A stretch of 64,000 nucleotides of DNA, from the NCBI GenBank assembly GCA_014236755.1, contig JACCKY010000014.1:1-64000 (forward strand), read 5' to 3'. Positions 19,617 through 35,170 of this stretch are shown here, piece after piece; within the stretch, counting starts at the first letter, position 1; every line of letters begins with the position of its first letter. Under the pieces are notes generated by a model. It did no database searches, had not been told where the DNA came from, and was given only the letters and a program-made list of their open reading frames with translations. This DNA comes from Candidatus Petromonas tenebris. GTDB taxonomy: Bacteria; Bacillota; Clostridia; Peptostreptococcales; Caminicellaceae. The position numbers and the translations under genes were made by a program.

Positions 19617-19834
19617 AGTAATATAAATTTAATCTTAGAATTGTATATCTATATAATAAGATTATTAAATGTATAAGAGATGAAAAAACAAAATGATGAC
19701 TTTCTATTTCCCTGCTATTCTAGCACTTAAAGATGAGAATAATCAATATTAGAAAGATTATTTTCAATATAAAGTTGAAATCCTATTAAAATAAAAATAT
19801 AATTAATTATAAAAAGAAAAGGGGAGGAAAACAA

Positions 19835-20365
19835 ATGCTTATAAATAGTGGCGAACTGGAAAGAAAAGCGATATTGAGTACTGCTGAAAGAATGTGTGTC
19901 GCTGCCCGTACAGCGCCAAAGGGCAAAGGAGTTGACAACATAGTAACAGCAGTATTAACAGATTCTGAAAAAGAAAGCCTGGCAATAGAAATGGATAAAA
20001 TAGCCCAAAATGAAGGAATAGATTTTTTTGCAAGGGATGCTAAAAACTTAAGAGAGGCAGAAGCGGTAGTTTTAATAGGGACAAAAATAAAAACAAGAGG
20101 TATTCCCTACTGTGGATTTTGTGGTTTTGGAAACTGTCAGGGGAAAATTGAACACGGTGGAGTCTGTGCCTTTGACGTAGGTGACCTAGGAATTGCTATT
20201 GGTTCTGCAGTCAGTATATCAGCCGATGATAGAGTTGATAACCGTATCATGTTCAGTATAGGAAAAGCTGCTCTGAATTTAAATCTGCTGGGAGAAGACA
20301 TTGCCATAGCTTATGGCATTCCGCTAGTAGCAAAAGGAAAAAGTATTTTCTTTGATAGAAAATAA
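19835..20365 (+). CDS. DUF2148 ferredoxin-domain protein
   Basis: A 176-residue protein of the DUF2148 family (annotated as containing a ferredoxin-like domain). The cysteine-rich centre CGFCGFGNCQGKIEHGGVC near residues 92-111 could hold an iron-sulfur cluster, and the N-terminal RMCVAARTAPKGKGVDNI block is family-typical. The function is unknown; relatives occur in anaerobic bacteria and archaea. Preceded by GGGGAGGAAA; no obvious operon partner, since the next gene starts 76 bases later. Confidence 0.85.
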   Translation: MLINSGELERKAILSTAERMCVAARTAPKGKGVDNIVTAVLTDSEKESLAIEMDKIAQNEGIDFFARDAKNLREAEAVVLIGTKIKTRGIPYCGFCGFGNCQGKIEHGGVCAFDVGDLGIAIGSAVSISADDRVDNRIMFSIGKAALNLNLLGEDIAIAYGIPLVAKGKSIFFDRK

Positions 20366-20441
20366 TAACATTTTTGATGCATTGTTATTGTTATTGAAGA
20401 GGAAATAGTAGAGGAGTTTCTTGAAAGGATAGGAAAGTAGA

Positions 20442-20867
20442 ATGAAGAAGGAATATCTTGAGTTAATTAAAGAACTTGAGGCATACAATGTATCCGCCGA
20501 TGAAGTAAGGAAGCTGATAAGGAAGAAGGTAGATATGCCAAAAGTTAAACTTAAAACTATATCTTTGCCATATCTTAATTCTATTTCTCCGACGATTGAA
20601 AGTACAGCTTTAAAATTATCAGAAGAGCAAGGAGAACTTTGCAGAGCCATAGGAAAATTTAGAGGTATGAATGGAGAAAGGGAAGGAATTAAACTGTCCG
20701 ATGGAGAGGCATATAATGAGATAACTAAAGAGCTTTTGGATGTGGCTCAAACGGCTATAACTATGATACTGGTTTTAGAAAAACAACATGGAATAAATGT
20801 AGAAAAATATATAAATGAACATATAGAAAAATTGATTGAGAAGGGTTATGTGGAAGTTTTAGAGTAG
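20442..20867 (+). CDS. MazG-like nucleotide pyrophosphohydrolase
   Basis: A 141-residue all-alpha protein. The metal motif EEQGE (ExxE) is near residues 67-71 and KELLD (ExxD) near 97-101, as in MazG-type NTP pyrophosphohydrolases. The first 45 residues are an extra helical segment. It may clear non-canonical nucleotides; the substrate is not predictable. A terminator follows immediately. Confidence 0.8.
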   Translation: MKKEYLELIKELEAYNVSADEVRKLIRKKVDMPKVKLKTISLPYLNSISPTIESTALKLSEEQGELCRAIGKFRGMNGEREGIKLSDGEAYNEITKELLDVAQTAITMILVLEKQHGINVEKYINEHIEKLIEKGYVEVLE

Positions 20868-21259: not shown

Positions 21260-21323
21260 AAACACAAGAGTTGGATATATCAGAACTTTGTTTGGTATTA
21301 TCAAACAAAAGGGGAGTAGATAT

Positions 21324-22112
21324 ATGGGTGCTAATATTAAACTGAAACCAAAGTTAATTCAATCGATTGATAGGGCTCTTCAAATATTAGAATCATTTTC
21401 CAATGAAGAGAAGGAGCTAGGCGTTACAGAGATAGCTAATAGACTAGATTTGCATAAGAGTACTGTACATGGAATATTAACTACTTTAGAATATAGAGGA
21501 TATATTAAAAAAAATGTAAAAACAGGAAAGTATCAACTTGGATTGAAACTACTTGAACTAGGAAATTTAGTGCATGACAGTATGGATTTGATTAGTTTGG
21601 CTAAGCCATATTTACAAGAATTAGTTAATAAGCATCAGGAAACTGTTCATTTAGTAGTATATGATAGAGGAGAGGTAATATATATAGATAAAATTGAAGG
21701 CAAAGGTGCAATTAAAATCATGTCGCGAATTGGTAAAAGAAATCCAGTTCATTGTACAGGAGTAGGAAAATGTTTACTCGCCTTTAGAGAAGACCATGAA
21801 ATAGAAATGATATTAAAACAAGATCTTAAAAAATATACGGTTAATACCATTACAGATTCAGAAAAGCTTAAGGAACAAATATTAGAAATTAGGAAAAATG
21901 GATATGCTTTTGATATGGAAGAGATAGAGTTAGGGCTTAGATGTATAGCTGCACCAATTAGAGACCATAGGAGAAAGGTGGTTGCTGCTATCAGTTTATC
22001 AGGACCTTCCATGAGAATGGACCAAGAAAGGATGCAAAATTTAGTAACAGATGTTAAGAAAGCTGCAGATATGATATCAAGAAATTTAGGATATATAGAT
22101 ATGCATTTCTAA
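21324..22112 (+). CDS. IclR-family transcriptional regulator
   Basis: A 262-residue regulator with the IclR winged helix in residues 10-75 (SIDRALQILESF, then LGVTEIANRLDLHKSTVHGIL) and the ligand-binding domain after it, including HCTGVGKCLLAF near 149 and the ELGLRCIAAPI segment near 210. I start it at ATG 21324, preceded by AAAGGGGAG; the longer frame from 21288 lacks a site. IclR proteins often control aromatic or carboxylate catabolism, and the catabolic operon starting at 22664 reads in the same direction, so local control of it is likely. The gene is flanked by inverted copies of the dispersed repeat. Confidence 0.93.
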   Translation: MGANIKLKPKLIQSIDRALQILESFSNEEKELGVTEIANRLDLHKSTVHGILTTLEYRGYIKKNVKTGKYQLGLKLLELGNLVHDSMDLISLAKPYLQELVNKHQETVHLVVYDRGEVIYIDKIEGKGAIKIMSRIGKRNPVHCTGVGKCLLAFREDHEIEMILKQDLKKYTVNTITDSEKLKEQILEIRKNGYAFDMEEIELGLRCIAAPIRDHRRKVVAAISLSGPSMRMDQERMQNLVTDVKKAADMISRNLGYIDMHF

Positions 22113-22663: not shown

Positions 22664-23914
22664 ATGAGTGTAGAAAACAAAATAGCTGTAAAAGAGAGTA
22701 GATTTGAAAAAGGCTCTAATATAGTACAAGGATTAAAAGACTTACCGAAATCACTAAATTCTAAAACAATTACAGCTGGCGTTGTTGCAGCAATATTTGG
22801 ATGTACTGGTCCAGCACTATTAGTTATTAAAGCAGCAACAGACGGTGGATTAACACAAGTTCAAGCTATTTCTTGGTTATTCTCTATTTACTTCTTTGGA
22901 GGTTTAATAAGTATTTTTATGGCACTTAAATATAAGATGCCAATTAATGGAGCTTATTCCATTCCAGCAGCTGCTATGATGATTGGAGCACTTCAGAACT
23001 TTACGGTGTATGAAGCTGCAGGTGCTTATTTTGTATCAGGGGTACTTGTATTAATACTTGGTTTTTCGGGTTTAATTGGTAAGTTTATGAAATGGATGCC
23101 TCTACCAATTGTTATGTCGATGATTGCAGGTGCTTTGATAAGATTTGGAACAGGTATAATCACTTCTGCACAGCAAGTACCGTTAATGGGAATAGCAGCT
23201 TTATTTGGCTTTTTAGTTTTACCGAAGATTTCAAAGAAGATACCACCTGTTCTTGGAGCATTATTGCTAGGAATAATTACGGTTAGTTTAACTGGCGGAC
23301 TTACTTGGAATACTGCAGAGTTCAAGTTTATTGCCCCACAACTTATAATGCCTCAATTTAGTTTAGATGCAATAATATCCATAGCAATTCCCTTGACAAT
23401 ATTGGTTATTGGAGCAGAAAATGCTCAGGCGACAGGTGTATTACTATCACAGAATTATAAAGCTCCAGTAAATGCAATGACTATTATAAGTGGAATTGGT
23501 GGCATGTTAGCTTCCCTGTTTGGGGGGCATAACGCAAACATAGCTGGGCCTATGACAGCCATATGTGCATCTGAGGAGGCAGGAGATGATAAAGAAGCGA
23601 GATATGCTGCAACTGTTGTAAATGGAGTAATTTTTAGTGCGTTTGGATTAGTTGCTAGTTTGGCATTAGCATTTGTAAAAGGGTTACCAAAGGCCTTAAT
23701 AGGAATAGTAGCAGGATTAGCAATGATTAATGTGTTATATAGTGCTTTCAATGAAGGTTTTGCAACTAAGAAATTTAAGTTTGGGTCATTTTTTGCACTC
23801 ATTATAGCTATGAGTGGAATAACACTATTTAAGATAAGTGCACCATTCTGGGCATTATTAGGTGGCGTTGTTGTTTCATACTTAACTGAACCAAATGACT
23901 TCAAGAACAGGTAG
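22664..23914 (+). CDS. BenE-family benzoate/carboxylate:H+ symporter-like transporter
   Basis: A 416-residue membrane protein with about 11-12 hydrophobic segments. The order IFGCTGPALLVIKAA near 43, INGAYSIPAAAMMIG near 94, and FGGHNANIAGPMTAICAS near 287-304 matches the BenE benzoate transporter family (a branch of the NCS2/UraA fold). It is expected to import an aromatic or unsaturated carboxylate with protons. It heads an operon with an iron-sulfur protein and a LarA-family enzyme, so its substrate is probably theirs. Preceded by GAGGAGGATT. Confidence 0.88.
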   Translation: MSVENKIAVKESRFEKGSNIVQGLKDLPKSLNSKTITAGVVAAIFGCTGPALLVIKAATDGGLTQVQAISWLFSIYFFGGLISIFMALKYKMPINGAYSIPAAAMMIGALQNFTVYEAAGAYFVSGVLVLILGFSGLIGKFMKWMPLPIVMSMIAGALIRFGTGIITSAQQVPLMGIAALFGFLVLPKISKKIPPVLGALLLGIITVSLTGGLTWNTAEFKFIAPQLIMPQFSLDAIISIAIPLTILVIGAENAQATGVLLSQNYKAPVNAMTIISGIGGMLASLFGGHNANIAGPMTAICASEEAGDDKEARYAATVVNGVIFSAFGLVASLALAFVKGLPKALIGIVAGLAMINVLYSAFNEGFATKKFKFGSFFALIIAMSGITLFKISAPFWALLGGVVVSYLTEPNDFKNR

Positions 23915-23965: not shown

Positions 23966-24595
23966 ATGCGTTTAGCAACTTTAAAAGCTGAAATAATTGA
24001 AGAGAAATGTATTGGATGTAGAACATGTGAAAAAGTATGTCCTACTTTAGCAATTAAAATGGTAGATAGGGTAGCAGTAATAGACTTAGATAAGTGTACA
24101 GGGTGTGGAAACTGTGAACAAAGATGTCCTGTATATGCTATCGAATTAAAAAGAAGAGAAGAGCCAGTAAAGCTTTATGTAGATCCTTCAACGGTAGATC
24201 AAAAAGAAATTGAAAAAATATGTACTAAAGCAAAATTCAATCCAGAACAAATTATTTGTTATTGTACAGAAACCAGAGCAGAAGAAGTTGCAGCAGCAAT
24301 TATTAAAGGGGCTGACACTCCTGAGAAAATCAGCTTAGCTACTGGAATTAGAACAGGTTGTAAAGTTGAGTGTATTCAACCAGTTCTTAGATTATTAGAA
24401 GCTGCAGGAATAAATCCAGAAAGGCCAGAAGGATGGCAGTGGTACGGCAAGACACCTACAATTTGGGATATTCCAGAGGAAGTTAAAGAAAAGTATAACA
24501 ATAGAGGATTCTATTTTGATAAAGATATTGAGTTATTAGATAAAGTTGCAGAGACTAGAAAAAAAGCGGTAGAAGAAGAGAAGGAGGTAATATAG
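23966..24595 (+). CDS. Iron-sulfur protein: 2[4Fe-4S] ferredoxin plus BFD-like [2Fe-2S] domain
   Basis: A 209-residue protein. C15, C18, C21 and C25 and then C44, C47, C50 and C54 form two [4Fe-4S] motifs of the bacterial ferredoxin kind. A second domain has C98 and C100 (CYC) and C132 and C136 (CKVEC), the layout of BFD-like [2Fe-2S] domains but with CxxxC instead of CxxC. The C-terminal 60 residues are charged and helical. It ends two bases before the LarA-family start, so the two are tightly coupled and may form one complex. It would carry electrons between ferredoxin or a dehydrogenase and its partner; direct evidence is absent. Confidence 0.88.
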   Translation: MRLATLKAEIIEEKCIGCRTCEKVCPTLAIKMVDRVAVIDLDKCTGCGNCEQRCPVYAIELKRREEPVKLYVDPSTVDQKEIEKICTKAKFNPEQIICYCTETRAEEVAAAIIKGADTPEKISLATGIRTGCKVECIQPVLRLLEAAGINPERPEGWQWYGKTPTIWDIPEEVKEKYNNRGFYFDKDIELLDKVAETRKKAVEEEKEVI

Positions 24596-24596
24596 T

Positions 24597-26030
24597 ATGA
24601 ATAAGCCAATTCAACCTATTGCACCAAGAGTATCTCAGTATGGAGTTGATCCAAAGTTTGTAACTAAAAGAATGTCTGAATATCCTGAAATGGTATCAGT
24701 GATGTTGAGAGATTTATTTGATGATACACCAGAAGTAATTTTTCCAAGTGACAAGGGGTTAGAAGCAGTTAGAGAAGCAGCACTTAAAGCTTTAGAAAAC
24801 GTTGATATGAGTATGATTAAACCCGGCGACTCAGTTAATGTATGTGCTTCACACCATGGTTTTACTATATTAGGTGGAGAGCCTTATGCTGTATTACTAA
24901 AAACAGTTAGAGATGTAATTGCAGAGAGAACAGGGACAGAAGACATTAGACTAAGAGCTGGGGTAGGTTTAAGGTTTAGAGAAACTGAAGAATATATGAA
25001 AGCCTTTGGATTAGATAAATATTACAATGGAAAAGTAAAAGGGGTAGCTCCTGTAGACGAAGGTATACCAATTGAGACGGAAATAGGAACACTTTATGGG
25101 ATTAAGGCTATATATGATGCAGACTGGATCGTTCATGTACATAATAGTGATGTAAGAGAAGTACATTTTCATAGACAAGTAGATAGAGCAGTTAAGCCTT
25201 TTGGTATGTCATATGCAAGAATAGAAACCAGATCAACATATCATCAAAACTTAGGACCAAGAGCTGCTAACTTTACTGCACGTTCAATTTTTGAGTCGGA
25301 TTTTGTTCAGAGCAAGTTTGCCTTTACAGCATTCTTAGATATGTCTCCTGTAGGGGTAGTAGGGGTAGATGCTGATAATAGTTTATATGATTTGAATGAT
25401 AGATTAACTGTAGCAGGGTGTAAGTACTATGGAAAAATAATGACTCTGCTAGGAGAAATTGATGAATGCATAGTTGGCCTTGATTTCCCATGCCCTGTAC
25501 CATATGTTTTTGCTGCAGGGGTAATATATGCTAACTTTGTTGGCGCTAATATGGACTTATTTGACCTAGACAACTCATTATCACCTTATACTTGGTATAC
25601 AGAGGCATTCTATGGAAAAGATGGTAAACCCCTTGTTGGTAGCATTCCTCCAGTAAATCCTGCAATCAAGATGGTTGTGCATAACTATGCTTGGGGAGGA
25701 TACCCAAGTGCATTCTTTAGTCACCATATACCTACAATAGTTGTTGGTCGCGAACAAGCAGATAAATTCAATATGGACCCACAAAACCTAGATTATATGA
25801 AACATTCAGTTATATCTGACAGCTTAGATTCTGCAATGGAATATGCATATAAAGTAGCTAAAACTGATAAAGTATTAATCTTCGATGGTGCTGCTGGAGG
25901 AATGAACGTAAGTGAATCTCTTGCAAAACTATTGATTGAAAAAGCCCCTGAAGTTAGTAAAAGAGTAGATGAAGAATTATTACCAAAGTGGTTAAAACAA
26001 CGTGGAATTGATCCAGCAGCTGTAAAATAA
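24597..26030 (+). CDS. Divergent LarA-family (nickel-pincer nucleotide) enzyme
   Basis: A 477-residue protein with the LarA/DUF2088 layout: a Rossmann-like KPGDSVNVCAS strand near residue 75, a TEDIRLRAGVGLR segment near 114, and a key block at 178-216. In that block H190, K200 and H216 have spacings of 10 and 16, exactly those of His174, Lys184 (cofactor tether) and His200 (nickel ligand) in Lactiplantibacillus LarA. The second catalytic histidine of LarA (His108, in TGTHR) aligns with R126 here, and the DPTR substrate-binding arginine region reads SHHG. It is about 50 residues longer than typical LarA. With larC, larB and larE downstream the cofactor is available. I infer a nickel-pincer hydride-transfer enzyme acting on a hydroxy acid, but probably not a simple racemase. 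Confidence 0.78.
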   Translation: MNKPIQPIAPRVSQYGVDPKFVTKRMSEYPEMVSVMLRDLFDDTPEVIFPSDKGLEAVREAALKALENVDMSMIKPGDSVNVCASHHGFTILGGEPYAVLLKTVRDVIAERTGTEDIRLRAGVGLRFRETEEYMKAFGLDKYYNGKVKGVAPVDEGIPIETEIGTLYGIKAIYDADWIVHVHNSDVREVHFHRQVDRAVKPFGMSYARIETRSTYHQNLGPRAANFTARSIFESDFVQSKFAFTAFLDMSPVGVVGVDADNSLYDLNDRLTVAGCKYYGKIMTLLGEIDECIVGLDFPCPVPYVFAAGVIYANFVGANMDLFDLDNSLSPYTWYTEAFYGKDGKPLVGSIPPVNPAIKMVVHNYAWGGYPSAFFSHHIPTIVVGREQADKFNMDPQNLDYMKHSVISDSLDSAMEYAYKVAKTDKVLIFDGAAGGMNVSESLAKLLIEKAPEVSKRVDEELLPKWLKQRGIDPAAVK

Positions 26031-26287: not shown

Positions 26288-27106
26288 ATGGTTAAACACG
26301 AAGAAATTGTTGACATTAGGGATATTATATTTGAGTCAATAATGGATGCAAAGTTTACTGCACAAATTACAGCCGAAAGGGAAGGCCTTATTTCAGGAAG
26401 TAAATATGCATTTGAAAAATTAATGGACATCGGAGTAGATATTGAGTTTTTGGTTGCTGATGGCAAAACCGTTTCGAAAGGCGATTTAGTTGCAAAATTT
26501 GAGGGTAATCCAAAACAAATAACCTTAGCAGAAGAAATAATAATAGGAAAATTGGCGAAAACTTCAGGCATAGCTACAGCATCTAATAAAGCATCGAAGC
26601 TAGGAGGAGAAAGCTGTAAGATAGCATCTGGTGCTTGGAAGAAAATGCCTCCAGAAATAAAAGATGTTGTGAGGGAGGCTATAGTGACAGGTGGAGCTTC
26701 TCCAAGACTTTTTGATGTTCCTTTTGTATATTTAGATAAAAATTATGTTCGTATTTTTGGTAGTATTTCAAAGGCTTTAGAGGCTACTAAAAACTTAGAG
26801 GGATATATAAAAGTGGTTCAACTGAAAGCTGAAACCGGATCAATTGAATATGAAACTAGAGAAGCTGTGAAAGCTTTAGCCGATGTAATAATGGTTGACA
26901 CGGGAAGAATTGAAGATGCTATTAAAGCTATTAATATCTTAAAAAAATTAGGTGTTAGATCTGATAAAAAAGTTGCCTTTGCCAAGGGTGTGAAGATTTC
27001 AGATATTCCACGTTGTAGAGAAGTTGGTATAGATTTATTATGCATTGGAAAGGAAATAGTAGATGCACCTCTTTTAGATATGAAGTTGGATATTGTTCCT
27101 AGTTAG
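26288..27106 (+). CDS. Quinolinate/nicotinate phosphoribosyltransferase-like protein (NadC/ModD fold)
   Basis: A 272-residue protein of the QPRTase fold: an N-terminal alpha/beta domain with EREGLISGSKYAFEKL near residue 36 (the G.(I/L).SG element of NadC and ModD) and a barrel with KLAKTSGIATAS near 88, ASGAWKKMPPE near 112 and VVQLKAETGSIEYETREAVKAL near 176. NadC proper makes NaMN from quinolinate and PRPP; ModD relatives have no assigned role. The location among nickel-pincer genes is notable because that cofactor is a pyridine-dicarboxylate mononucleotide. It is followed 12 bases later by the CinA/MoaB-fold gene, so they are coexpressed. The reaction is not established. Confidence 0.8.
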   Translation: MVKHEEIVDIRDIIFESIMDAKFTAQITAEREGLISGSKYAFEKLMDIGVDIEFLVADGKTVSKGDLVAKFEGNPKQITLAEEIIIGKLAKTSGIATASNKASKLGGESCKIASGAWKKMPPEIKDVVREAIVTGGASPRLFDVPFVYLDKNYVRIFGSISKALEATKNLEGYIKVVQLKAETGSIEYETREAVKALADVIMVDTGRIEDAIKAINILKKLGVRSDKKVAFAKGVKISDIPRCREVGIDLLCIGKEIVDAPLLDMKLDIVPS

Positions 27107-27117
27107 GAGATGAAAAT

Positions 27118-28017
27118 ATGAACTTAAACCTATTAGAGAAAACAGAAATTTGGATTGGAAAACTAAAATTAGAAGAAGCCAATCTTAATGAAATTGCAGG
27201 CGTAGTTGCTGAAGTGCTTGAACTTCCACGGGATAAGGTGTTAGTAGTAGATGTTAGAGAAGATCATATAACGTTAGATGTATTACAACATGAGCTAAAA
27301 GCTGAAGCTGTTTACGGCAAAAAGAAAGAGTTGTTAAACAAATTATCTTTTATACCTGGAGTAAATATTTTCGAAGATACAGATATTCATTCAGCAGGGA
27401 TACTAGGAATGATTGGATTAGATGAAGAGGATACCAGCACAGTTATAAAAAATACAAATAAGATTGCCGAGGAAATTCAAAAGCGAATAGCTAAGAGAGT
27501 TATAGTGTATCCAACAGGTTTTGAGGTTAAAAGAGGAATGATAGAAGACACGAATACGCCCTTAATTATGGAAATGTTAAAGGAAAAAGGATATAAAGTT
27601 AGTTCAGGTGATGCGATTGATGACGATGTTGATTTAATTGCTGGAAAGATACGACAAGCAGTAAATGCTGGGTACGGTTTAGTTATAACTACCGGTGGAG
27701 TAGGAGCTGAAGATAAGGATAAGACTGTTGAAGCTATTTTAAAGTTGGATCCTAATGCAGCAACACCATATATAGCTAAATTTCAAAAGGGGACAGGTAG
27801 ACATGAAAAAGATGGAGTTAGAATTGGCATAGGAAGAGTAGGACAAACTCTTATAATTGCACTACCTGGACCTAATGATGAAGTGAAAATTGGTATTGAA
27901 GTAATAATTAGATGTTTAGAAATAGGAGTAAATAAAGAAACTTTAGCAAATGAATTAGCAAAATCTTTGAGAGACAAGTTAAGAAAAAAACATCATAAAC
28001 AACATTACAAGCATTGA
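27118..28017 (+). CDS. CinA/MoaB-fold (molybdopterin-binding-like) protein
   Basis: A 299-residue protein. Residues about 1-125 form an unrecognised N-terminal domain. Residues 126-280 carry the MoCF-fold motifs PTGFEVKRGMIEDTNTP near 139-155, an SSGDAIDDDVD turn near 169, and ITTGGVGAEDKDKTVEAI near 192-209, as in MoaB, MogA and the N-terminal part of CinA. The C-terminus is His/Lys-rich (KKHHKQHYKH). It lies between the QPRTase-like gene and the hydratase gene, with no other molybdopterin genes in view, so a nucleotide-modifying role is as plausible as a molybdenum-cofactor role. Confidence 0.8.
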   Translation: MNLNLLEKTEIWIGKLKLEEANLNEIAGVVAEVLELPRDKVLVVDVREDHITLDVLQHELKAEAVYGKKKELLNKLSFIPGVNIFEDTDIHSAGILGMIGLDEEDTSTVIKNTNKIAEEIQKRIAKRVIVYPTGFEVKRGMIEDTNTPLIMEMLKEKGYKVSSGDAIDDDVDLIAGKIRQAVNAGYGLVITTGGVGAEDKDKTVEAILKLDPNAATPYIAKFQKGTGRHEKDGVRIGIGRVGQTLIIALPGPNDEVKIGIEVIIRCLEIGVNKETLANELAKSLRDKLRKKHHKQHYKH

Positions 28018-28030
28018 TGGAGGGGGAAAA

Positions 28031-28813
28031 ATGAATAATATACAGATAAAAGAAGCTGCAGACTTTTTGGCTAAAGCTAGCAGGACACTTGAACCTATGG
28101 ATGCTTTGACCAAAATATACAGTGATATAACAGTTGATGATGCTTATAAAATTCAGCTAGAAAATATCAATAAAAAAGTTGCCGATGGCAGAACAATTAT
28201 AGGTAAAAAAATTGGGTTGACTAGTCATGCGATGCAGGAAATGCTAGGAGTTCCTGAACCTGATTATGGGCACCTGTTAGATGATATGTTAGGAGATGAA
28301 GAAGTACCTATAAAGGTTTCTTCATTACTGCAACCTAAGATCGAACCAGAATTAGCTTTTATATTGAAAGATGAACTAAAGGGTCCAGGAATAACAGTTG
28401 CAAATGTAATTGAAGCAACTGCAGGAGTAATGCCTGCCTTAGAAATAATAGATAGTAGAATTAAAGATTGGAAAATAAAAATACAAGATACAGTTGCAGA
28501 TAATGCTTCAAGTGCAATGGTAGTTTTAGGTGGAAAGATGATGCCAATAAGTGAATTGGATTTAAGACATATTGGGTTAGTATTAGAAAAAAATGGACAA
28601 ATTATTGATACAGCAGCAGGAGCAGCAGTTTTAGGAAATCCGGCAATAGCTGTAGCTTGGCTAGCAAATAAATTAGCTCAATATGATATTTCATTAAAAC
28701 CAGGAGAAATAATTTTAGCAGGCTCTCTTACTAAAGCCTATGAAATAGAAGCTGGCGATCTATTTACTGCAACATTTGATAAACTTGGAACAGTAAAAGT
28801 ATTATTTAAATAA
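28031..28813 (+). CDS. 2-oxopent-4-enoate hydratase family protein (MhpD/DmpE or DmpH type)
   Basis: A 260-residue member of the fumarylacetoacetate-hydrolase-like hydratase/decarboxylase family. Family blocks are [23 protein letters not shown] near 58-80, a metal-site [10 protein letters not shown] near 97-106, and [14 protein letters not shown] near 130-143. In the meta-cleavage pathway these enzymes turn 2-oxopent-4-enoate into 4-hydroxy-2-oxovalerate (DmpE/MhpD) or decarboxylate 4-oxalocrotonate (DmpH). The two types are close in sequence and I cannot separate them here; with only one copy in the operon the hydratase role fits better, because dehydrogenase and aldolase genes follow. Confidence 0.85.
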
Positions 28814-28833: not shown

Positions 28834-29706
28834 ATGAGTAAAAAAATTAAGGCAGCTATAGTAGGACCAGGAAACATAGGAATGGATTTAATGTATAAAC
28901 TAATTGATAGTAAGTATATTGAGCTGGATAGTGTGATAGGAATTGATCCTAATTCTAATGGTTTAAGGTTAGCTAGGGAAAATGGTTTTAAGACATTTCA
29001 TACTGGGTTGGAAGCGATTATAGGAAATAAAGATATAAAGATAGTTTTTGATGCGACAAGTGCAAAGGCTCATTTAAAGCACGCTGAAATGTTAAAAAAT
29101 GATAACAAAATAGCTATAGATTTAACACCAGCTGCTGTTGGACCATATGTTGTTCCTCCAGTAAACTTCGATGAAAATGTTGATAGTATAAACATAAACA
29201 TGGTAACCTGTGGAGGTCAAGCAACTATACCGATAGTAGCAGCTATTAATGAGGTAGCAGATGTTGAGTACGCAGAAATAGTGGCAACAATATCAAGTAA
29301 AAGTGCAGGACCAGGAACTAGACAAAATATTGATGAATTTACTGAAACAACATCAAAGGCTATAGAAAAAGTTGGTGGAGCAAAGAAGGGTAAGGCTATT
29401 ATTATATTAAATCCTGCTGAGCCACCTATAATAATGAGAGATACGGTTCATGTTAAAGTAGCTAATCCGGATGAAAAGGCAATAAACGATGCTGTTATAA
29501 ATATGGTTAGCAAAGTTAAAGAATATGTACCAGGCTACCAATTGAAAGTGCCTCCAATTATTGATGGAGATAAAGTAACTGTAATGCTTGAAGTTGAGGG
29601 GGCAGGAGCTTTCTTGCCTAAATATTCAGGTAATCTTGATATAATGACTGCAGCCGCAAAGGCAGCAGGAGAAAAAATAGCTCAAAGATTGTTGGAAAAA
29701 GAGTAA
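28834..29706 (+). CDS. mhpF: Acetaldehyde dehydrogenase (acylating), DmpF/MhpF type
   Basis: A 290-residue protein with the NAD-binding [13 protein letters not shown] near residue 11 and the catalytic-cysteine segment [16 protein letters not shown] near 125. The [18 protein letters not shown] segment near 162 is diagnostic of the DmpF/MhpF class. It converts acetaldehyde to acetyl-CoA with NAD and CoA and normally forms a channelling complex with the 4-hydroxy-2-oxovalerate aldolase, whose gene starts 12 bases later. An ordinary 290-320 residue size; no defect seen. Confidence 0.95.
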
Positions 29707-29717
29707 GGAGGATAAAA

Positions 29718-30755
29718 ATGGGAAAAAAAATTAGAATTGTAGATACTACATTAAGGGATGGAATGCATGCAGTAGCACATCAATTTACTCCTGAAGATAT
29801 GGCTGAAATAGCTTTGAAATTAGATGAAGCGGGAGTTGATACTATTGAGGTAAGCCATGGTGATGGATTAGGAGGTTCTTCATTCCAATACGGGTTTGCA
29901 GCTGCATCTGATCAAGAGTACCTAGAGGCTGTTTCTAAGGTATTAAAAAGAAGTAAATTGGCAGTTTTACTGTTGCCGGGTATAGGAACTCAAGAGCACT
30001 TGGAAATGGCAGCTCAATATGGAGCTAAAGTTGCAAGGATTGCAACTCATGTAACAGAAGCTGACGTTGGAGAACAACATATAAAATTAGCTAAGAAACT
30101 TGGTATGGAAGCAATCGGATTTCTGATGATGTCCCATATGGTAGATAAAGAAAAAGTAGTAGAGCAGGCAAAACTATTTGAAAGTTATGGTGCAGATACG
30201 ATTTATGTAACAGATTCAGCAGGGGCCCTTGCACCAAATGAAGTTAGAGAACGAATAGAGGCAGTGAAAAAAGCTGTATCTGTGCCTATTGGACATCATG
30301 CTCATAATAATTTAGGCTTAGCTATAGCTAACTCTTTAGCAGCTATAGAAGCAGGTGCCGATATTGTTGATGGAACATGTAAAGGTCTGGGTGCAGGTGC
30401 AGGAAATGCACAGTTAGAAGTGTTGGCAGCAGTATTAAATAAATTGGGTTATGAGACCGGAATTGATTTATATAAAATTATGGATGTAGCAGATGATATT
30501 GTAGCTCCAAAGATGAAAAGACCGCAAGTAATTGATAAAAACTCGTTATCTATAGGATATGCTGGAACTTATGGAAGTTTCTTATTACATGCTCTAAGGG
30601 CATCTGAAAAGTTTGGAGTAGATGCTAGAGATATATTAATCGAAATGGGTAGAAGAAAAACTGTAGGTGGGCAAGAGGATATGATTGTAGATGTTGCCTA
30701 CGAACTTAGCAAAAAAAATCAAATGATAGATAAAACTGGATTACAGATTGGATAA
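29718..30755 (+). CDS. mhpE: 4-hydroxy-2-oxovalerate aldolase, DmpG/MhpE type
   Basis: A 345-residue TIM-barrel aldolase of the HMG-CoA-lyase-like superfamily. The metal and base motif DTTLRDGMHAVAHQF is at residues 9-23, EVSHGDGLGGSS near 43-54, YVTDSAGAL near 171-179 and the metal site GHHAHNNLGLA near 196-206. It cleaves 4-hydroxy-2-oxovalerate to pyruvate and acetaldehyde, which is passed to the acetaldehyde dehydrogenase partner encoded just upstream. With the hydratase gene this completes a meta-cleavage lower pathway in an organism that otherwise looks anaerobic. Confidence 0.96.
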   Translation: MGKKIRIVDTTLRDGMHAVAHQFTPEDMAEIALKLDEAGVDTIEVSHGDGLGGSSFQYGFAAASDQEYLEAVSKVLKRSKLAVLLLPGIGTQEHLEMAAQYGAKVARIATHVTEADVGEQHIKLAKKLGMEAIGFLMMSHMVDKEKVVEQAKLFESYGADTIYVTDSAGALAPNEVRERIEAVKKAVSVPIGHHAHNNLGLAIANSLAAIEAGADIVDGTCKGLGAGAGNAQLEVLAAVLNKLGYETGIDLYKIMDVADDIVAPKMKRPQVIDKNSLSIGYAGTYGSFLLHALRASEKFGVDARDILIEMGRRKTVGGQEDMIVDVAYELSKKNQMIDKTGLQIG

Positions 30756-30808: not shown

Positions 30809-31642
30809 ATGATAAAATTCGTTGGGAAAGATTTACTAGAGGCTTTTGTTAAAATAAGTCCTTACATTAATGAATTGACATATAGTGATAACTTTATTGC
30901 TGTAGCAGATACTGAAAAATATATTGCTTATACACCTGCTAAAGGACTTAAGCTAAATGTTAAAGTTGGAACTAGGGTTAAAGAAGGAAGTACTGCAGAT
31001 TTAGCTATGAAGAATGGAAAAAAGACTGTGCTAAACATTTCTAAAGAAGTTTACGGTTTACCCTTTAAAGCAATAGCTGAGCCTATATATGATGAGGACG
31101 GCAAAATAATTGGCGCAGTATTAATTGGCACAAGTACAGATAATGAAGAGAAGTTAAAAAATACGGTAGATAATTTTGCTGAATCCTTTGAATATGTGAA
31201 TAAAACTATTCAAGAAATTTCACTGGCTGCAAGCAATCTTGCAGAAATAAGTGAAAAATTAGCTGAAATGGTTGTAGAGACCCAAATCAAAGTTAAAAAG
31301 AGTGATGAAATAATAGGAATGATAAAGCACTTAGCAAGTCAAACTAAACTATTAGGTTTGAATGCTGCAATAGAAGCAGCTAGAGCTGGAGATTATGGAA
31401 GAGGGTTTGCAATTGTGGCTAACGAGATACATCGACTATCAGAACAAAGTAACGATTCAGTTGAAAATGTGTCCTCGATTTTAGATGAAATGATAGAAAA
31501 CATTGAAGAAATTAATAAAAGTTCTCAAGAAACTAGTGCTGTATGCCAACAACAAGCTTCTGCCTCACAAGAAATAGCAGCCACAATAGATGAATTAGCT
31601 AAAAGACTAGATGAGTTAAAAGAATTTAGTGATATAATTTAA
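30809..31642 (+). CDS. Soluble methyl-accepting chemotaxis protein
   Basis: A 277-residue chemoreceptor without membrane segments. Residues 1-110 form a compact alpha/beta sensor-like domain (PAS/Cache-like, not identified further; blocks YTPAKGLKLNVKVGTRV and AIAEPIYDEDGKIIGAV). Residues 120-277 are the coiled-coil signalling domain, whose hairpin tip LASQTKLLGLNAAIEAARAG near 175-194 contacts CheA and CheW. It follows the aldolase gene by 53 bases in the same direction, so it may sense a metabolite of the pathway inside the cell. Too short to hold the usual methylation helices of long receptors. Confidence 0.88.
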   Translation: MIKFVGKDLLEAFVKISPYINELTYSDNFIAVADTEKYIAYTPAKGLKLNVKVGTRVKEGSTADLAMKNGKKTVLNISKEVYGLPFKAIAEPIYDEDGKIIGAVLIGTSTDNEEKLKNTVDNFAESFEYVNKTIQEISLAASNLAEISEKLAEMVVETQIKVKKSDEIIGMIKHLASQTKLLGLNAAIEAARAGDYGRGFAIVANEIHRLSEQSNDSVENVSSILDEMIENIEEINKSSQETSAVCQQQASASQEIAATIDELAKRLDELKEFSDII

Positions 31643-31950: not shown

Positions 31951-32160
31951 ATGATGTTTAACATACCGCTACCGGGAGGAACAACGGACCCTGCTGTTGA
32001 AGTTATATTGGCAGCCATGCTATTAGGGTCTTATGCTGCAGTTATTGTATTTACTGATAGATACCGTGTAATTATAGATGATAAATATGATATAATTATA
32101 AAAAATAAAGAATTTTTAAGCAAAAATAATATAATTGATGAAGGTGAGATAATAGTATGA
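31951..32160 (+). CDS. Small unknown protein translationally coupled to larC
   Basis: A 69-residue frame whose TGA overlaps the larC start (ATGA), a classic coupling arrangement. The product has one hydrophobic segment near residues 17-35 (VILAAMLLGSYAAVIVFTD) and a charged Asp/Lys-rich tail. No strong ribosome binding site precedes its ATGATG start; a GGGAGGA lies inside the frame. I do not recognise it. It may be a small membrane protein linked to nickel or cofactor delivery, or only a translated leader. Confidence 0.5.
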   Translation: MMFNIPLPGGTTDPAVEVILAAMLLGSYAAVIVFTDRYRVIIDDKYDIIIKNKEFLSKNNIIDEGEIIV

Positions 32161-33392
32161 AGATACTTTATTACGATTGTTTTTCAGGTATTAGTGGAGA
32201 TATGAACTTGGGAGCTATGATAGATTTAGGTGTAGATAAAGATTATTTAATAAATGAGCTTTCAAAATTAAATTTAGATTCAGAGTTTGAGCTAAAAGTA
32301 AGTAGAGCTAACAGAAAAGGAATAGATGGTACAAAGGTAGATGTGGTGTTAAAAAATAATCATAATCACCACCATAGTCATGAGCATTATAATGAGATAC
32401 ATACTCATAGTCATGTTCATAGAAACTTGAAAGATATTGAAAACATTATAAACTCAAGTGATTTAAGTGATAAGGTGAAAAAACTAAGTATGAAAATATT
32501 CATGGAGGTTGCTAAGGCAGAGGCTAAAGTTCATGGAAAATCTTTGTATGAGGTTCATTTCCACGAGGTAGGAGCTATAGATTCGATTGTTGATATAGTT
32601 GGAGCTGCAATATGCATTGACTACTTAGACGTAGATAAAATTATGGCTTCCCACGTTGAATTAGGTGGAGGCTCTGTAAAATGTGAACATGGAATTATTC
32701 CAGTGCCAGCACCGGCAACAATAGAGATATTAAAAGGAATACCAATCAAGTTAGGTAAGGTAGAGTTTGAGACTACAACTCCAACAGGGGCGGCAATATT
32801 GGCAGCAGTTGTGGATGAATTTAGCAGCAATTTAAACTTAGCTATTGATAAAGTTGGCTATGGCATTGGTAATAGAGACCTGGAAATACCCAATGTGTTA
32901 AGAGTCTATTTAGCTGAGGAAATTAAAGAGAAAAATGATACAAAAAATAATAATTATATTTTGGAAACAAATATTGATGATATGAATCCAGAACTGTATG
33001 GGTATATAGAAGAAAAATTGCTTAAAAATGGAGCACTAGATGTATATAAAACGCCTATAATTATGAAAAAGGGACGTCCTGCAACAAAACTCACTGTTTT
33101 GGTTAAAGAGAGAAATGAAGAAGCAGTAAAAGAAGTGATATTTAAAGAAACTACGTCCATAGGGTTAAGAAAATATAAAGTTGAAAAAATAATGCTTGAT
33201 AGGGATTTTACAAAAGTGAGAACTTCCTATGGAGATGTAACGATAAAGAGTAGCTATTATAAGGGCGAGAAGGTTAAATATAAACCAGAATATGAAGATT
33301 GTAAGAAGCTTGCACAGCAATATAATGTATCAATTAATGATGTATATAAAGAAGTTAATAAATTAGTAGAGAAGGATTTTAACGATAAATAA
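32157..33392 (+). CDS. larC: LarC, pyridinium-3,5-bisthiocarboxylate mononucleotide nickel insertase
   Basis: A 411-residue protein covering both halves of LarC in one frame, whereas some lactobacilli need a ribosomal frameshift. The N-terminus DCFSGISGDMNLGAM is diagnostic, residues 69-89 are a His-rich nickel-binding loop (NHHHSHEH and HTHSHVH), and FHEVGAIDSIVDIVGAA near 132-148 is the conserved core. It installs nickel into the cofactor using CTP in the characterised enzyme. It is in a unit with larB and larE and downstream of the LarA-like gene. Confidence 0.95.
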   Translation: MKILYYDCFSGISGDMNLGAMIDLGVDKDYLINELSKLNLDSEFELKVSRANRKGIDGTKVDVVLKNNHNHHHSHEHYNEIHTHSHVHRNLKDIENIINSSDLSDKVKKLSMKIFMEVAKAEAKVHGKSLYEVHFHEVGAIDSIVDIVGAAICIDYLDVDKIMASHVELGGGSVKCEHGIIPVPAPATIEILKGIPIKLGKVEFETTTPTGAAILAAVVDEFSSNLNLAIDKVGYGIGNRDLEIPNVLRVYLAEEIKEKNDTKNNNYILETNIDDMNPELYGYIEEKLLKNGALDVYKTPIIMKKGRPATKLTVLVKERNEEAVKEVIFKETTSIGLRKYKVEKIMLDRDFTKVRTSYGDVTIKSSYYKGEKVKYKPEYEDCKKLAQQYNVSINDVYKEVNKLVEKDFNDK

Positions 33393-33503: not shown

Positions 33504-34250
33504 ATGAATATAGCAGAAATAAAAAAGATGTTAGAAGAAGTACGATCAGGTAAACTAGAGATAGATGAGGCAGTTAACCAAATTAAGGATTTACCATTTA
33601 AAGAGTTAGGGTTTGCCACAATAGATAATCACAGGGAAATTAGAAACGGGTATCCGGAAGTAATTTACTGTGAGGGTAAAACAGTAGAGCAAGTAAAAAA
33701 AATTGTTGAATTCATGCTCACAAAAAATAATGATATATTGGCTACAAGGGCAAATGAAGAAATGTATAATGAAATTAAGAAAATTTGTCCGGATGCACAT
33801 TATAATAAATTAGGAAGAACTATATCCATTAAGAAAACCAAAGAAGAATATACAGATAGCTATATAGCCATAGTTGCAGCAGGGACATCAGATTTGCCTG
33901 TAGTAGAAGAGGCATATGAAACAGCAAAAATATTAGGAAATAGAGTTGAAAAAATTATTGATGTTGGTGTTGCAGGCATACATAGACTATTTGCCAAACT
34001 AGATGTTTTGAGGAAGGCAAAAGTAGTAATAGTAGTAGCAGGAATGGAAGGTGCTCTGGCAAGCGTTGTTGGAGGACTTGTAGATAAACCTGTTATAGCA
34101 GTGCCAACTAGTGTAGGGTATGGTGCTAATTTTGGAGGACTAGCATCATTACTTTCTATGTTGAATAGTTGTGCCAGTGGAATAAGCGTAGTAAATATAG
34201 ATAATGGGTTTGGAGCAGCTTATAATGCTAGTATAATAAACAAATTATAA
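33504..34250 (+). CDS. larB: LarB, nickel pincer cofactor biosynthesis carboxylase/hydrolase
   Basis: A 248-residue protein whose C-terminal half is PurE/AIR-carboxylase-like: VAAGTSDLPVVEEA near 124-137, VAGMEGALASVVGG near 178-191, and NSCASGISVVNIDNG with C223, matching the reactive Cys221 of characterised LarB. LarB carboxylates the pyridinium ring of NaAD and releases AMP, giving the dicarboxylate mononucleotide. AAAGGAGGA precedes the start, 111 bases after larC. The size is normal and no defect is seen. Confidence 0.95.
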   Translation: MNIAEIKKMLEEVRSGKLEIDEAVNQIKDLPFKELGFATIDNHREIRNGYPEVIYCEGKTVEQVKKIVEFMLTKNNDILATRANEEMYNEIKKICPDAHYNKLGRTISIKKTKEEYTDSYIAIVAAGTSDLPVVEEAYETAKILGNRVEKIIDVGVAGIHRLFAKLDVLRKAKVVIVVAGMEGALASVVGGLVDKPVIAVPTSVGYGANFGGLASLLSMLNSCASGISVVNIDNGFGAAYNASIINKL

Positions 34251-34363
34251 GTTGCGGAAATGTAACAATTTGTTTCTTTTTAATAGCAAGGATAAAAGTT
34301 ATATGTTTAATCTAAATAGATTCAACTAAAAATTTGCGTGTGTATAAGGGGAGGAGCATATAT

Positions 34364-35170
34364 ATGGAACTAAATCAAAAACTACAAAAGCTTCAAGAGA
34401 TTCTAAAGGAACTAGATAGTGCTGTAGTAGCCTTTTCAGGTGGAGTGGATAGTACATTTCTGTTAAAGGTTGCCCATGATGTATTAGGTGAAAATGTTAT
34501 TGCTGTTACAGCAACTTCATCGACTTATCCCGAAAGAGAATTAAAAGAAGCCATAAAATATGCTAAAGAATTTAAAGTTAGACATGAAATTATAGAGTCA
34601 GAGGAATTAGATATTGATGGATTTGCAAAAAATCCAACAAACAGATGCTATTACTGTAAACATGAATTGTTTTCAAAGTTAAGAGAAGTAGCAAAACAAA
34701 ATAATATTAAATATGTGTTAGATGGTTCCAATTATGACGATATAGGAGATTTTAGACCAGGTATGGAGGCTGCCAAAGAATTAAAAGTAATTAGTCCATT
34801 AAAGGAAGCAAAATTAACTAAGGAAGATATAAGAATGCTATCAAAGAACATGAATGTGCCAACATGGGATAAGCCTGCATTTGCTTGCCTTTCATCGAGA
34901 TTTCCATATGGTCAGGAAATTACAGCTGAAAAATTAAAAATGGTTGAACTAGCTGAGCAATTTTTGCTAGATATGGGCTTTAAACAGGTCAGAGTAAGGC
35001 ATCATGGGGAAATAGCGAGGATAGAAGTTAGTCGCAATGAAAGAGAAAAGTTTTTTGAAGCCGACATTATGGATACCATTGGAGCAGAATTTAAGAAAAT
35101 AGGCTTTACATATGTAACCCTTGACATATTAGGATACAGAACAGGGAGTATGAATGAAGTGTTAAAGTAA
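34364..35170 (+). CDS. larE: LarE, sacrificial sulfur transferase for the nickel pincer cofactor
   Basis: A 268-residue PP-loop ATPase: AFSGGVDSTFLL near residues 28-39, NRCYYCKHELF near 97, and ACLSSRFPYG near 172-181, holding the cysteine equivalent to the sulfur-donating Cys176 of Lactiplantibacillus LarE. It adenylates and thiolates the two carboxylates of the cofactor precursor. I start it at ATG 34364, preceded by GGGGAGGAG; the longer frame from 34334 has no site. The gene ends before a strong terminator, closing the lar unit. Confidence 0.94.
   Translation: MELNQKLQKLQEILKELDSAVVAFSGGVDSTFLLKVAHDVLGENVIAVTATSSTYPERELKEAIKYAKEFKVRHEIIESEELDIDGFAKNPTNRCYYCKHELFSKLREVAKQNNIKYVLDGSNYDDIGDFRPGMEAAKELKVISPLKEAKLTKEDIRMLSKNMNVPTWDKPAFACLSSRFPYGQEITAEKLKMVELAEQFLLDMGFKQVRVRHHGEIARIEVSRNEREKFFEADIMDTIGAEFKKIGFTYVTLDILGYRTGSMNEVLK

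Follow-up and report, generated by a model that had tools for sequence, protein, structure and literature searches.

The question raised by this locus is which reaction a LarA-like protein may catalyze when it lies beside a ferredoxin. The window, a 64,000-nucleotide stretch of Candidatus Petromonas tenebris (contig JACCKY010000014.1, positions 1 to 64,000), contains on its forward strand the open reading frame 24597-26030, whose product was named LarAx. A preliminary description made from the sequence had placed this frame (477 aa) correctly and had read it as a LarA-family enzyme with one catalytic His replaced by Arg.

Gene content of the locus

LarAx belongs to a conserved cluster that comprises a ferredoxin (FdBfd), LarAx, BenE, the nucleotide-handling pair QPT and MoCF, and MhpD-MhpF-MhpE. 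Genes for synthesis of the nickel-pincer nucleotide (NPN) follow. The features of the window are listed below, with counts from a comparison of 45 distinct LarAx loci.

21288-22112, forward strand: IclR-type regulator (PF01614/PF09339), in 34 of 45 loci, sometimes farther from the core genes
22664-23914, forward strand: BenE-type aromatic-acid transporter (PF03594, 258.6 bits), in 25 of 45 loci
23966-24595, forward strand: FdBfd, two 4Fe-4S motifs and a BFD-like [2Fe-2S] domain (PF00037, PF04324), proposed electron donor
24597-26030, forward strand: LarAx, predicted LarA-fold protein of 477 aa, proposed nickel-pincer-dependent ring-opening 2-furoate reductase
26288-27106, forward strand: QPT, quinolinate phosphoribosyltransferase paralogue, co-conserved with LarAx
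27118-28017, forward strand: MoCF, MogA/CinA-type nucleotide-binding domain (PF00994) plus a further domain of about 120 aa at the N-terminus
28031-28813, forward strand: MhpD, 2-hydroxypenta-2,4-dienoate (2-oxopent-4-enoate) hydratase type (TIGR03220)
28834-29706, forward strand: MhpF, acetylating acetaldehyde dehydrogenase (PF09290)
29718-30755, forward strand: MhpE, 4-hydroxy-2-oxovalerate aldolase (PF00682, PF07836)
32157-33392, forward strand: LarC, nickel insertion in NPN synthesis (TIGR00299 and NF052512, above cut-off)
33504-34250, forward strand: LarB, NPN synthesis (NF033503, 309 bits, above cut-off)
34334-35170, forward strand: LarE, NPN synthesis (TIGR00268, 357 bits, above cut-off)

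Relationship of LarAx to LarA

The sequence of LarAx was searched against several collections. No LarA model was matched in Pfam or NCBIfam, and no LarA match was obtained among PDB sequences using phmmer and hmmsearch. A whole-genome search with Lar_N (PF09861) retrieved four ordinary LarA genes and one DUF362-like protein, and LarAx was not among them; it was also absent from the plasmid collection searched. In a profile-profile alignment with 18 LarA proteins (hhalign), LarAx was in register over residues 57-248, with a weak score (E 0.022).

H190, K200, H216, R126, and SHHG (85-88) were all found where they had been placed, with spacings of 10 and 16. The generic motif PH.FAG.SGG.K was absent, the actual segment being REVHFHRQVDRAVK. 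LarA_Sp has the same 10/16 spacing (N185-K195-H211) (PMC12611868). K200 and H216 are present in all 42 homologues compared, and the 10/16 spacing alone is not above chance. The 17-column segment from K to H scored no better than chance placements in a profile test, and the motif was rejected as stand-alone proof of kinship with LarA. The case from sequence only is thin.

The predicted structure gave a clearer result. The AlphaFold model of LarAx (pLDDT 82.5, pTM 0.84) contains the two-domain fold of LarA. Eleven LarA-family entries matched it with Z values of 17.4-19.4 over 332-349 residues, compared to 6.4 for the best unrelated chain, and Foldseek agreed in placing LarA structures at the top. 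The model thus makes a strong structural case for a LarA fold. The assignment to the LarA family therefore held for the fold (Z 17-19 versus 6.4) and failed for sequence recognition by Pfam, NCBIfam, and PDB searches. Because the fold and the weak, in-register profile alignment concur, kinship with LarA is above chance.

In the model, K200 starts helix 199-206 and H216 ends helix 208-216, followed by a long helix and a strand. This order of elements, which carries no distances, would fit the placement expected for LarA Lys184 and His200. The suggestion of a separate branch was supported by the missing Lar_N match, and LarAx, which the tested LarA HMMs do not recognise, is very distantly related to lactate racemase.

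Conserved and variable residues

Residue conservation was determined among 42 non-redundant LarAx homologues, down to 42% identity. K200, H216, H180, H192, R187, E188, R193, E210, G88, and F89 were invariant. The sites that correspond to functional residues of LarA are as follows.

24849-24863, forward strand: SHHGF (residues 85-89), LarA Asp72-Thr74-Arg75 site, with invariant G88 and F89
24972-24974, forward strand: R126, aligned by profile with LarA His108, replaced by G in two distant members of the 42 homologues
25164-25172, forward strand: H190-H192, with H190 in 39 of 42 (three distant members have Y or D) and H192 in 42 of 42
25194-25196, forward strand: K200, invariant, candidate cofactor tether (LarA Lys184)
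25242-25244, forward strand: H216, invariant, candidate nickel ligand (LarA His200)

The positions proposed for the tether Lys and the nickel His were therefore unchanged in every homologue (42/42). The catalytic pair His108/His174 of LarA was not kept, as R126 occupies the first site and H190 is variable. As had been expected, LarAx is unlikely to be an ordinary two-base racemase. The exchange of His108 for Arg, which had been taken as the defining feature, did not hold up, because both R126 and H190 vary in distant members. H192 is a better candidate than H190 for a general acid.

The Asp72/Arg75 site of LarA was not kept either, with H86 or E/Q at one position and the invariant F89 at the other. 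An Arg75-type residue in LarA binds both the NPN phosphate and the substrate carboxylate (PMC12611868). As F89 is invariant at this site, the Arg is replaced by Phe, and since LarAx has neither of the NPN-binding residues Asp and Arg of LarA, its cofactor binding must differ. The stable features of the family are the Lys/His pair, H192, and the loss of the ribose/phosphate/carboxylate Asp/Arg site.

Nickel-pincer cofactor genes

The genes for LarC, LarB, and LarE follow the aldolase gene at a distance of 1.4 kb, past a gene for a methyl-accepting-domain protein (30809-31642). This protein, encoded directly after MhpE, perhaps senses the substrate or directs chemotaxis toward it.

Among 398 Bacillota genomes surveyed, 26 (about 7%) contained full-length LarAx; two more were left out because of a contig-end LarAx fragment or a marginal match. 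LarB was present in 25-26 of the 26 LarAx genomes versus 217 of 398 overall (Fisher 2e-6 to 8e-8), the LarB of G362 (E 2.6e-51) being probably near the cut-off. LarC was found in 25 and LarE in all 26. These counts are not fully independent, because 12 of the 26 genomes belong to a single family (f25). Two LarAx genomes, 99% and 100% complete, contained LarB, LarC, and LarE and yielded no Lar_N protein in the search, so that LarAx appears to be the sole cofactor user there. The cofactor genes thus accompany LarAx, often within the same locus. Given this nearly constant co-occurrence and the two genomes lacking a recognisable LarA, LarAx likely uses the nickel-pincer cofactor and would carry it bound. 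The LarA fold and the cofactor link are well supported; the substrate and the reaction we infer.

Three smaller observations concern these genes. In locus L011, a CbiM-type cobalt/nickel uptake gene (19761-20717) lies between the IclR and LarE genes, consistent with nickel demand, and in L008 a CbiM-type homologue comes after LarC. In G098 (contig C2, 802408-803302), a stretch of 65 codons next to LarC resembles the N-terminus of LarAx and is apparently what remains of a broken second copy.

The QPT and MoCF pair

QPT scored 104 bits against the nadC equivalog (cut-off 198), compared to 356 bits for the true NadC elsewhere in the genome, and the quinolinate-site motifs (TRKT / HR in NadC) are changed to AWKKMP / YLDKNY. 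On these grounds, QPT was rejected as NadC. The MoCF model (pLDDT 86.9) matched MogA/MoaB with Z values of 13-15 across residues 122-273, and the structural matches listed were filled by MogA.

QPT and MoCF stay with LarAx even where MhpD, MhpE, and MhpF are absent, and their role may be to make or alter a nucleotide cofactor. As LarAx has lost the nucleotide-binding Asp and Arg of LarA, it is attractive to suppose that the two proteins produce a modified pincer nucleotide, and this is only a guess.

Conservation of the gene cluster

FdBfd adjoined LarAx in all 45 loci, in agreement with the earlier idea that the Fe-S gene would co-occur with the branch carrying Arg for His. QPT was found in 40 loci, MoCF in 39, MhpD in 36, MhpE in 34, and MhpF in 33; loci missing QPT or MoCF were mostly at contig ends. 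The MhpD of the window scored 302.6 bits against TIGR03220, under the cut-off of 408.8, and this was still its best family. The distant loci L023 and L024 kept QPT, FdBfd, and MoCF, and no MhpD, MhpE, or MhpF was found on the available locus DNA of the distant members L023-L025. Therefore, QPT-FdBfd-LarAx-MoCF looks like the oldest core.

Optional genes encode an Fe-dependent alcohol dehydrogenase (Fe-ADH, 9 of 45 loci), a tungsten-type aldehyde:ferredoxin oxidoreductase (AOR, 10), and a UbiD decarboxylase (8). Several AOR-bearing loci also encode an Fe-S protein and a ThiS-type protein. L093, L099, L107, L017, and L019 carry near LarAx another LarA homologue, which is Lar_N-positive and is preceded in the first three by a xanthine-dehydrogenase-type molybdenum hydroxylase. 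An M24 creatinase/prolidase-like hydrolase, often adjoining BenE, occurs in 21 of 45 loci (e.g., L018, 7774-8946) and is absent from the window cluster; it perhaps frees the acid from a conjugate. Upstream of the regulator, the window contains a DUF2148 ferredoxin-domain gene (19835-20365), and none was seen in the other LarAx loci.

Evidence for a possible furan substrate

The UbiD-type gene provided the main clue to the substrate. In the 8 loci that contain it, it lies beside LarAx, and most of these loci also carry the aldehyde oxidoreductase and the alcohol dehydrogenase. Its product showed 65-68% identity to PDB 6h6v and scored 650-690 bits, compared to 210-240 bits for the next PDB family; by bit score it is the 6h6v orthologue and not AroY, VdcC, or UbiD. 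The 6H6V structure is given as HmfF (PMC8988006). The HmfF of Pelotomaculum thermopropionicum is described as a decarboxylase of furan-2,5-dicarboxylate (FDCA) that can also carboxylate 2-furoate (PMC6644310), and it thus converts the two acids into each other.

The order of G212 was searched with 6h6v independently of LarAx. Four HmfF genomes were found, and in all four HmfF was about 3.3 kb or less from LarAx. In G178 and G343, from two more families, HmfF, Fe-ADH, and AOR were no more than 16 kb from LarAx. With a threshold of 600 bits, HmfF occurred in 6 of 26 LarAx genomes versus 2 of 372 others; these statistics are not independent, because the profile drew partly on LarAx-adjacent loci and f25 accounts for 12 of the 26 LarAx genomes. 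G003 and G231, which have no LarAx, contained an HmfF-like gene that is more distant (53%).

Two further points agree with a furan acid. In the aerobic furoate cluster hmfABCDE of Pseudomonas, benE adjoins (PMC6678421). By stoichiometry, 2-furoic acid (C5H4O3) plus 2H gives C5H6O3, which equals 2-hydroxypenta-2,4-dienoate, the MhpD substrate type. The preliminary description had favored oxidation, elimination, or one-base epimerisation of a hydroxy acid; the neighboring genes suggest reduction of an aromatic furan acid instead.

Other substrates and routes were considered. Phenol and catechol were rejected, as a C6 ring gives no C5 outflow without a further cleavage gene. Pyridines were set aside because the core has no ammonia-releasing gene. 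A hydroxylation route in the style of D. furfuralis or Hmf was also rejected, since no more than 2-3 loci contain a molybdenum hydroxylase, beside the second LarA and outside the core.

Several observations count against furoate. HmfF occurs in no more than 8 of 45 loci, the window's own cluster has none, and the M24 hydrolase (21/45 loci) is unaccounted for. The low MhpD score, the lack of MhpD, MhpE, and MhpF on the available DNA of the distant members, and the replaced NPN-binding residues also weigh against the reading. FDCA decarboxylation was assigned to the Pelotomaculum enzyme in vitro. The route proposed for D. furfuralis, an anaerobe, passes through an oxidised intermediate, 5-oxo-4,5-dihydrofuran-2-carboxylate (PMC11384913), which speaks against a reductive reading.

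Proposed reaction and alternative explanations

We give about even chances to the reading that LarAx, in anaerobic catabolism of furfural and furoate, opens the ring of 2-furoate reductively with the nickel-pincer cofactor and electrons from ferredoxin. LarAx would carry NPN or a variant of it, with Lys200 as tether and His216 on the nickel, and would not be a racemase. Electrons from FdBfd would reduce the cofactor; a reduced NPN form has been linked to 340 nm absorption in LarA enzymes (PMC12611868). The reduced cofactor would deliver hydride to C5 of 2-furoate, the ring C-O bond would break by elimination as the ring oxygen leaves C5, and an invariant acid, probably His192, would protonate the leaving enolate to give 2-hydroxypenta-2,4-dienoate. 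Chemically, hydride at C5 with loss of the ring oxygen gives the dienoate directly. One proton donor instead of two bases would be enough, which fits the residue pattern of LarAx. MhpD would then hydrate the dienoate, MhpE would split the product into pyruvate and acetaldehyde, and MhpF would convert acetaldehyde to acetyl-CoA. As MhpF would return the two electrons, the fermentation would balance. In related loci, furfuryl and HMF alcohols and aldehydes may enter through the Fe-dependent alcohol dehydrogenase and the tungsten-type aldehyde oxidoreductase, and FDCA through HmfF. We regard the bound cofactor, the substrate, the electron donor, the site of hydride transfer, and the functions of QPT and MoCF as putative. 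We know of no precedent for ferredoxin reduction of unactivated furoate via NPN. The fuller claim, that LarAx is the first anaerobic furan-ring opener, a ferredoxin-fed nickel-pincer oxidoreductase that needs neither CoA nor oxygen and possibly uses a QPT/MoCF-modified cofactor, we hold tentatively, at somewhat under even chances.

Three alternatives were weighed against this ring-opening reduction. LarAx could be NPN-dependent and redox-neutral, racemising, epimerising, or isomerising a hydroxy acid of the pathway while FdBfd serves another step. The characterised LarA relatives are all 2-hydroxy acid racemases or epimerases (PMC7583248, PMC11770544), and in 2020 authors expected single-His members to shift hydride within the substrate. 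We nevertheless consider this role rather unlikely, because FdBfd is a constant neighbor, the conserved core would otherwise have no ring-attacking gene, and neither the two bases nor the substrate-carboxylate Arg is conserved. It is likewise unlikely that ferredoxin and NPN open or dearomatise another (hetero)aromatic acid and that furans are confined to the HmfF subset. The rarity of HmfF is in favor of such a substrate, and BenE and AOR are compatible with it, but the MhpD-F-E outflow calls for a C5 acid equivalent to 2-furoate + 2H, and among pathway-specific enzymes only HmfF is linked repeatedly.

The remaining alternative concerns the cofactor: the LarA fold might work without the Lar cofactor, or with a differently built one from QPT and MoCF. 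The co-occurrence of LarB, LarC, and LarE, also in genomes without other Lar_N proteins, and the invariant Lys and His make this quite improbable, even though the cofactor-binding Asp72/Arg75 are replaced and QPT and MoCF are conserved together with LarAx, distant members included.

Comparison with known systems

LarAx shares with the LarA superfamily (lactate racemase, malate racemase Mar2, and LarA_Ip) the predicted two-domain fold, the spacing of 16 residues between the candidate Lys and His, and linked or co-occurring LarB, LarC, and LarE. It differs in the lack of an HMM or PDB sequence match (9-14% identity), the absence of the DxTR motif and the two-base pair, the ferredoxin partner, and the catabolic, aromatic-acid-like cluster. 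Single-His LarA homologues were reported in 2025 from another branch, in which Asn replaces the other His (PMC12611868). Two of these, LarA_Bw and LarA_Sp (9q3j, 9q3k), were the best structural matches to LarAx (Z 19.4) and resemble it in the 10/16 spacing and the loss of one catalytic base. In contrast to LarAx, they keep the His108 equivalent and occur in a carbohydrate-type context, and identity in the structural alignment is 11-13%.

The aerobic Hmf pathway (hmfABCDE with HmfF/G; Cupriavidus, Pseudomonas) has HmfF, BenE, and the 2-furoate hub in common with LarAx loci. It leads to 2-oxoglutarate by way of furoyl-CoA and a molybdenum dehydrogenase, whereas the conserved LarAx core has no CoA ligase and its outflow is MhpD/F/E. 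The lower meta-cleavage pathway (DmpE/F/G, MhpD/F/E) shares the hydratase, the acetaldehyde dehydrogenase, and the aldolase. Unlike that pathway, the LarAx cluster has no dioxygenase, and the dienoate would arise from a reduction, with no oxygen-dependent cleavage.

In the literature searched, mostly open-access, no paper was found that connects a nickel-pincer enzyme with furans or furoate. The cluster reads like a previously undescribed oxygen-free route for opening furoic acid, a breakdown product of plant sugars. Characterised nickel-pincer enzymes are all isomerases that hide a redox step. A ferredoxin-wired enzyme, if true, would perform an open reduction and extend the cofactor to dearomatising chemistry, and to our knowledge LarAx would be the first LarA-type member working as an oxidoreductase. 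Furfural and HMF inhibit biomass fermentation, and FDCA is a plastics monomer. According to a review, further furanic pathways may come to light in anaerobic bacteria, and there is a need for alternatives to the oxygen-dependent route (PMC6604932). As the cluster is common in the sampled Bacillota genomes and is present in named isolates, the idea is directly testable.

DUF362 proteins (PF04015) resemble Lar_N weakly. They were rejected as closer kin of LarAx because their hhalign alignment to it was weaker than that of LarA. DUF362-like proteins and an unusual 435-aa protein with weak Lar_N matches were observed in L005 (50-1198 and 1453-2394) and L070 (799-2106), and these matches suggest a wider LarA-like superfamily with loose borders.
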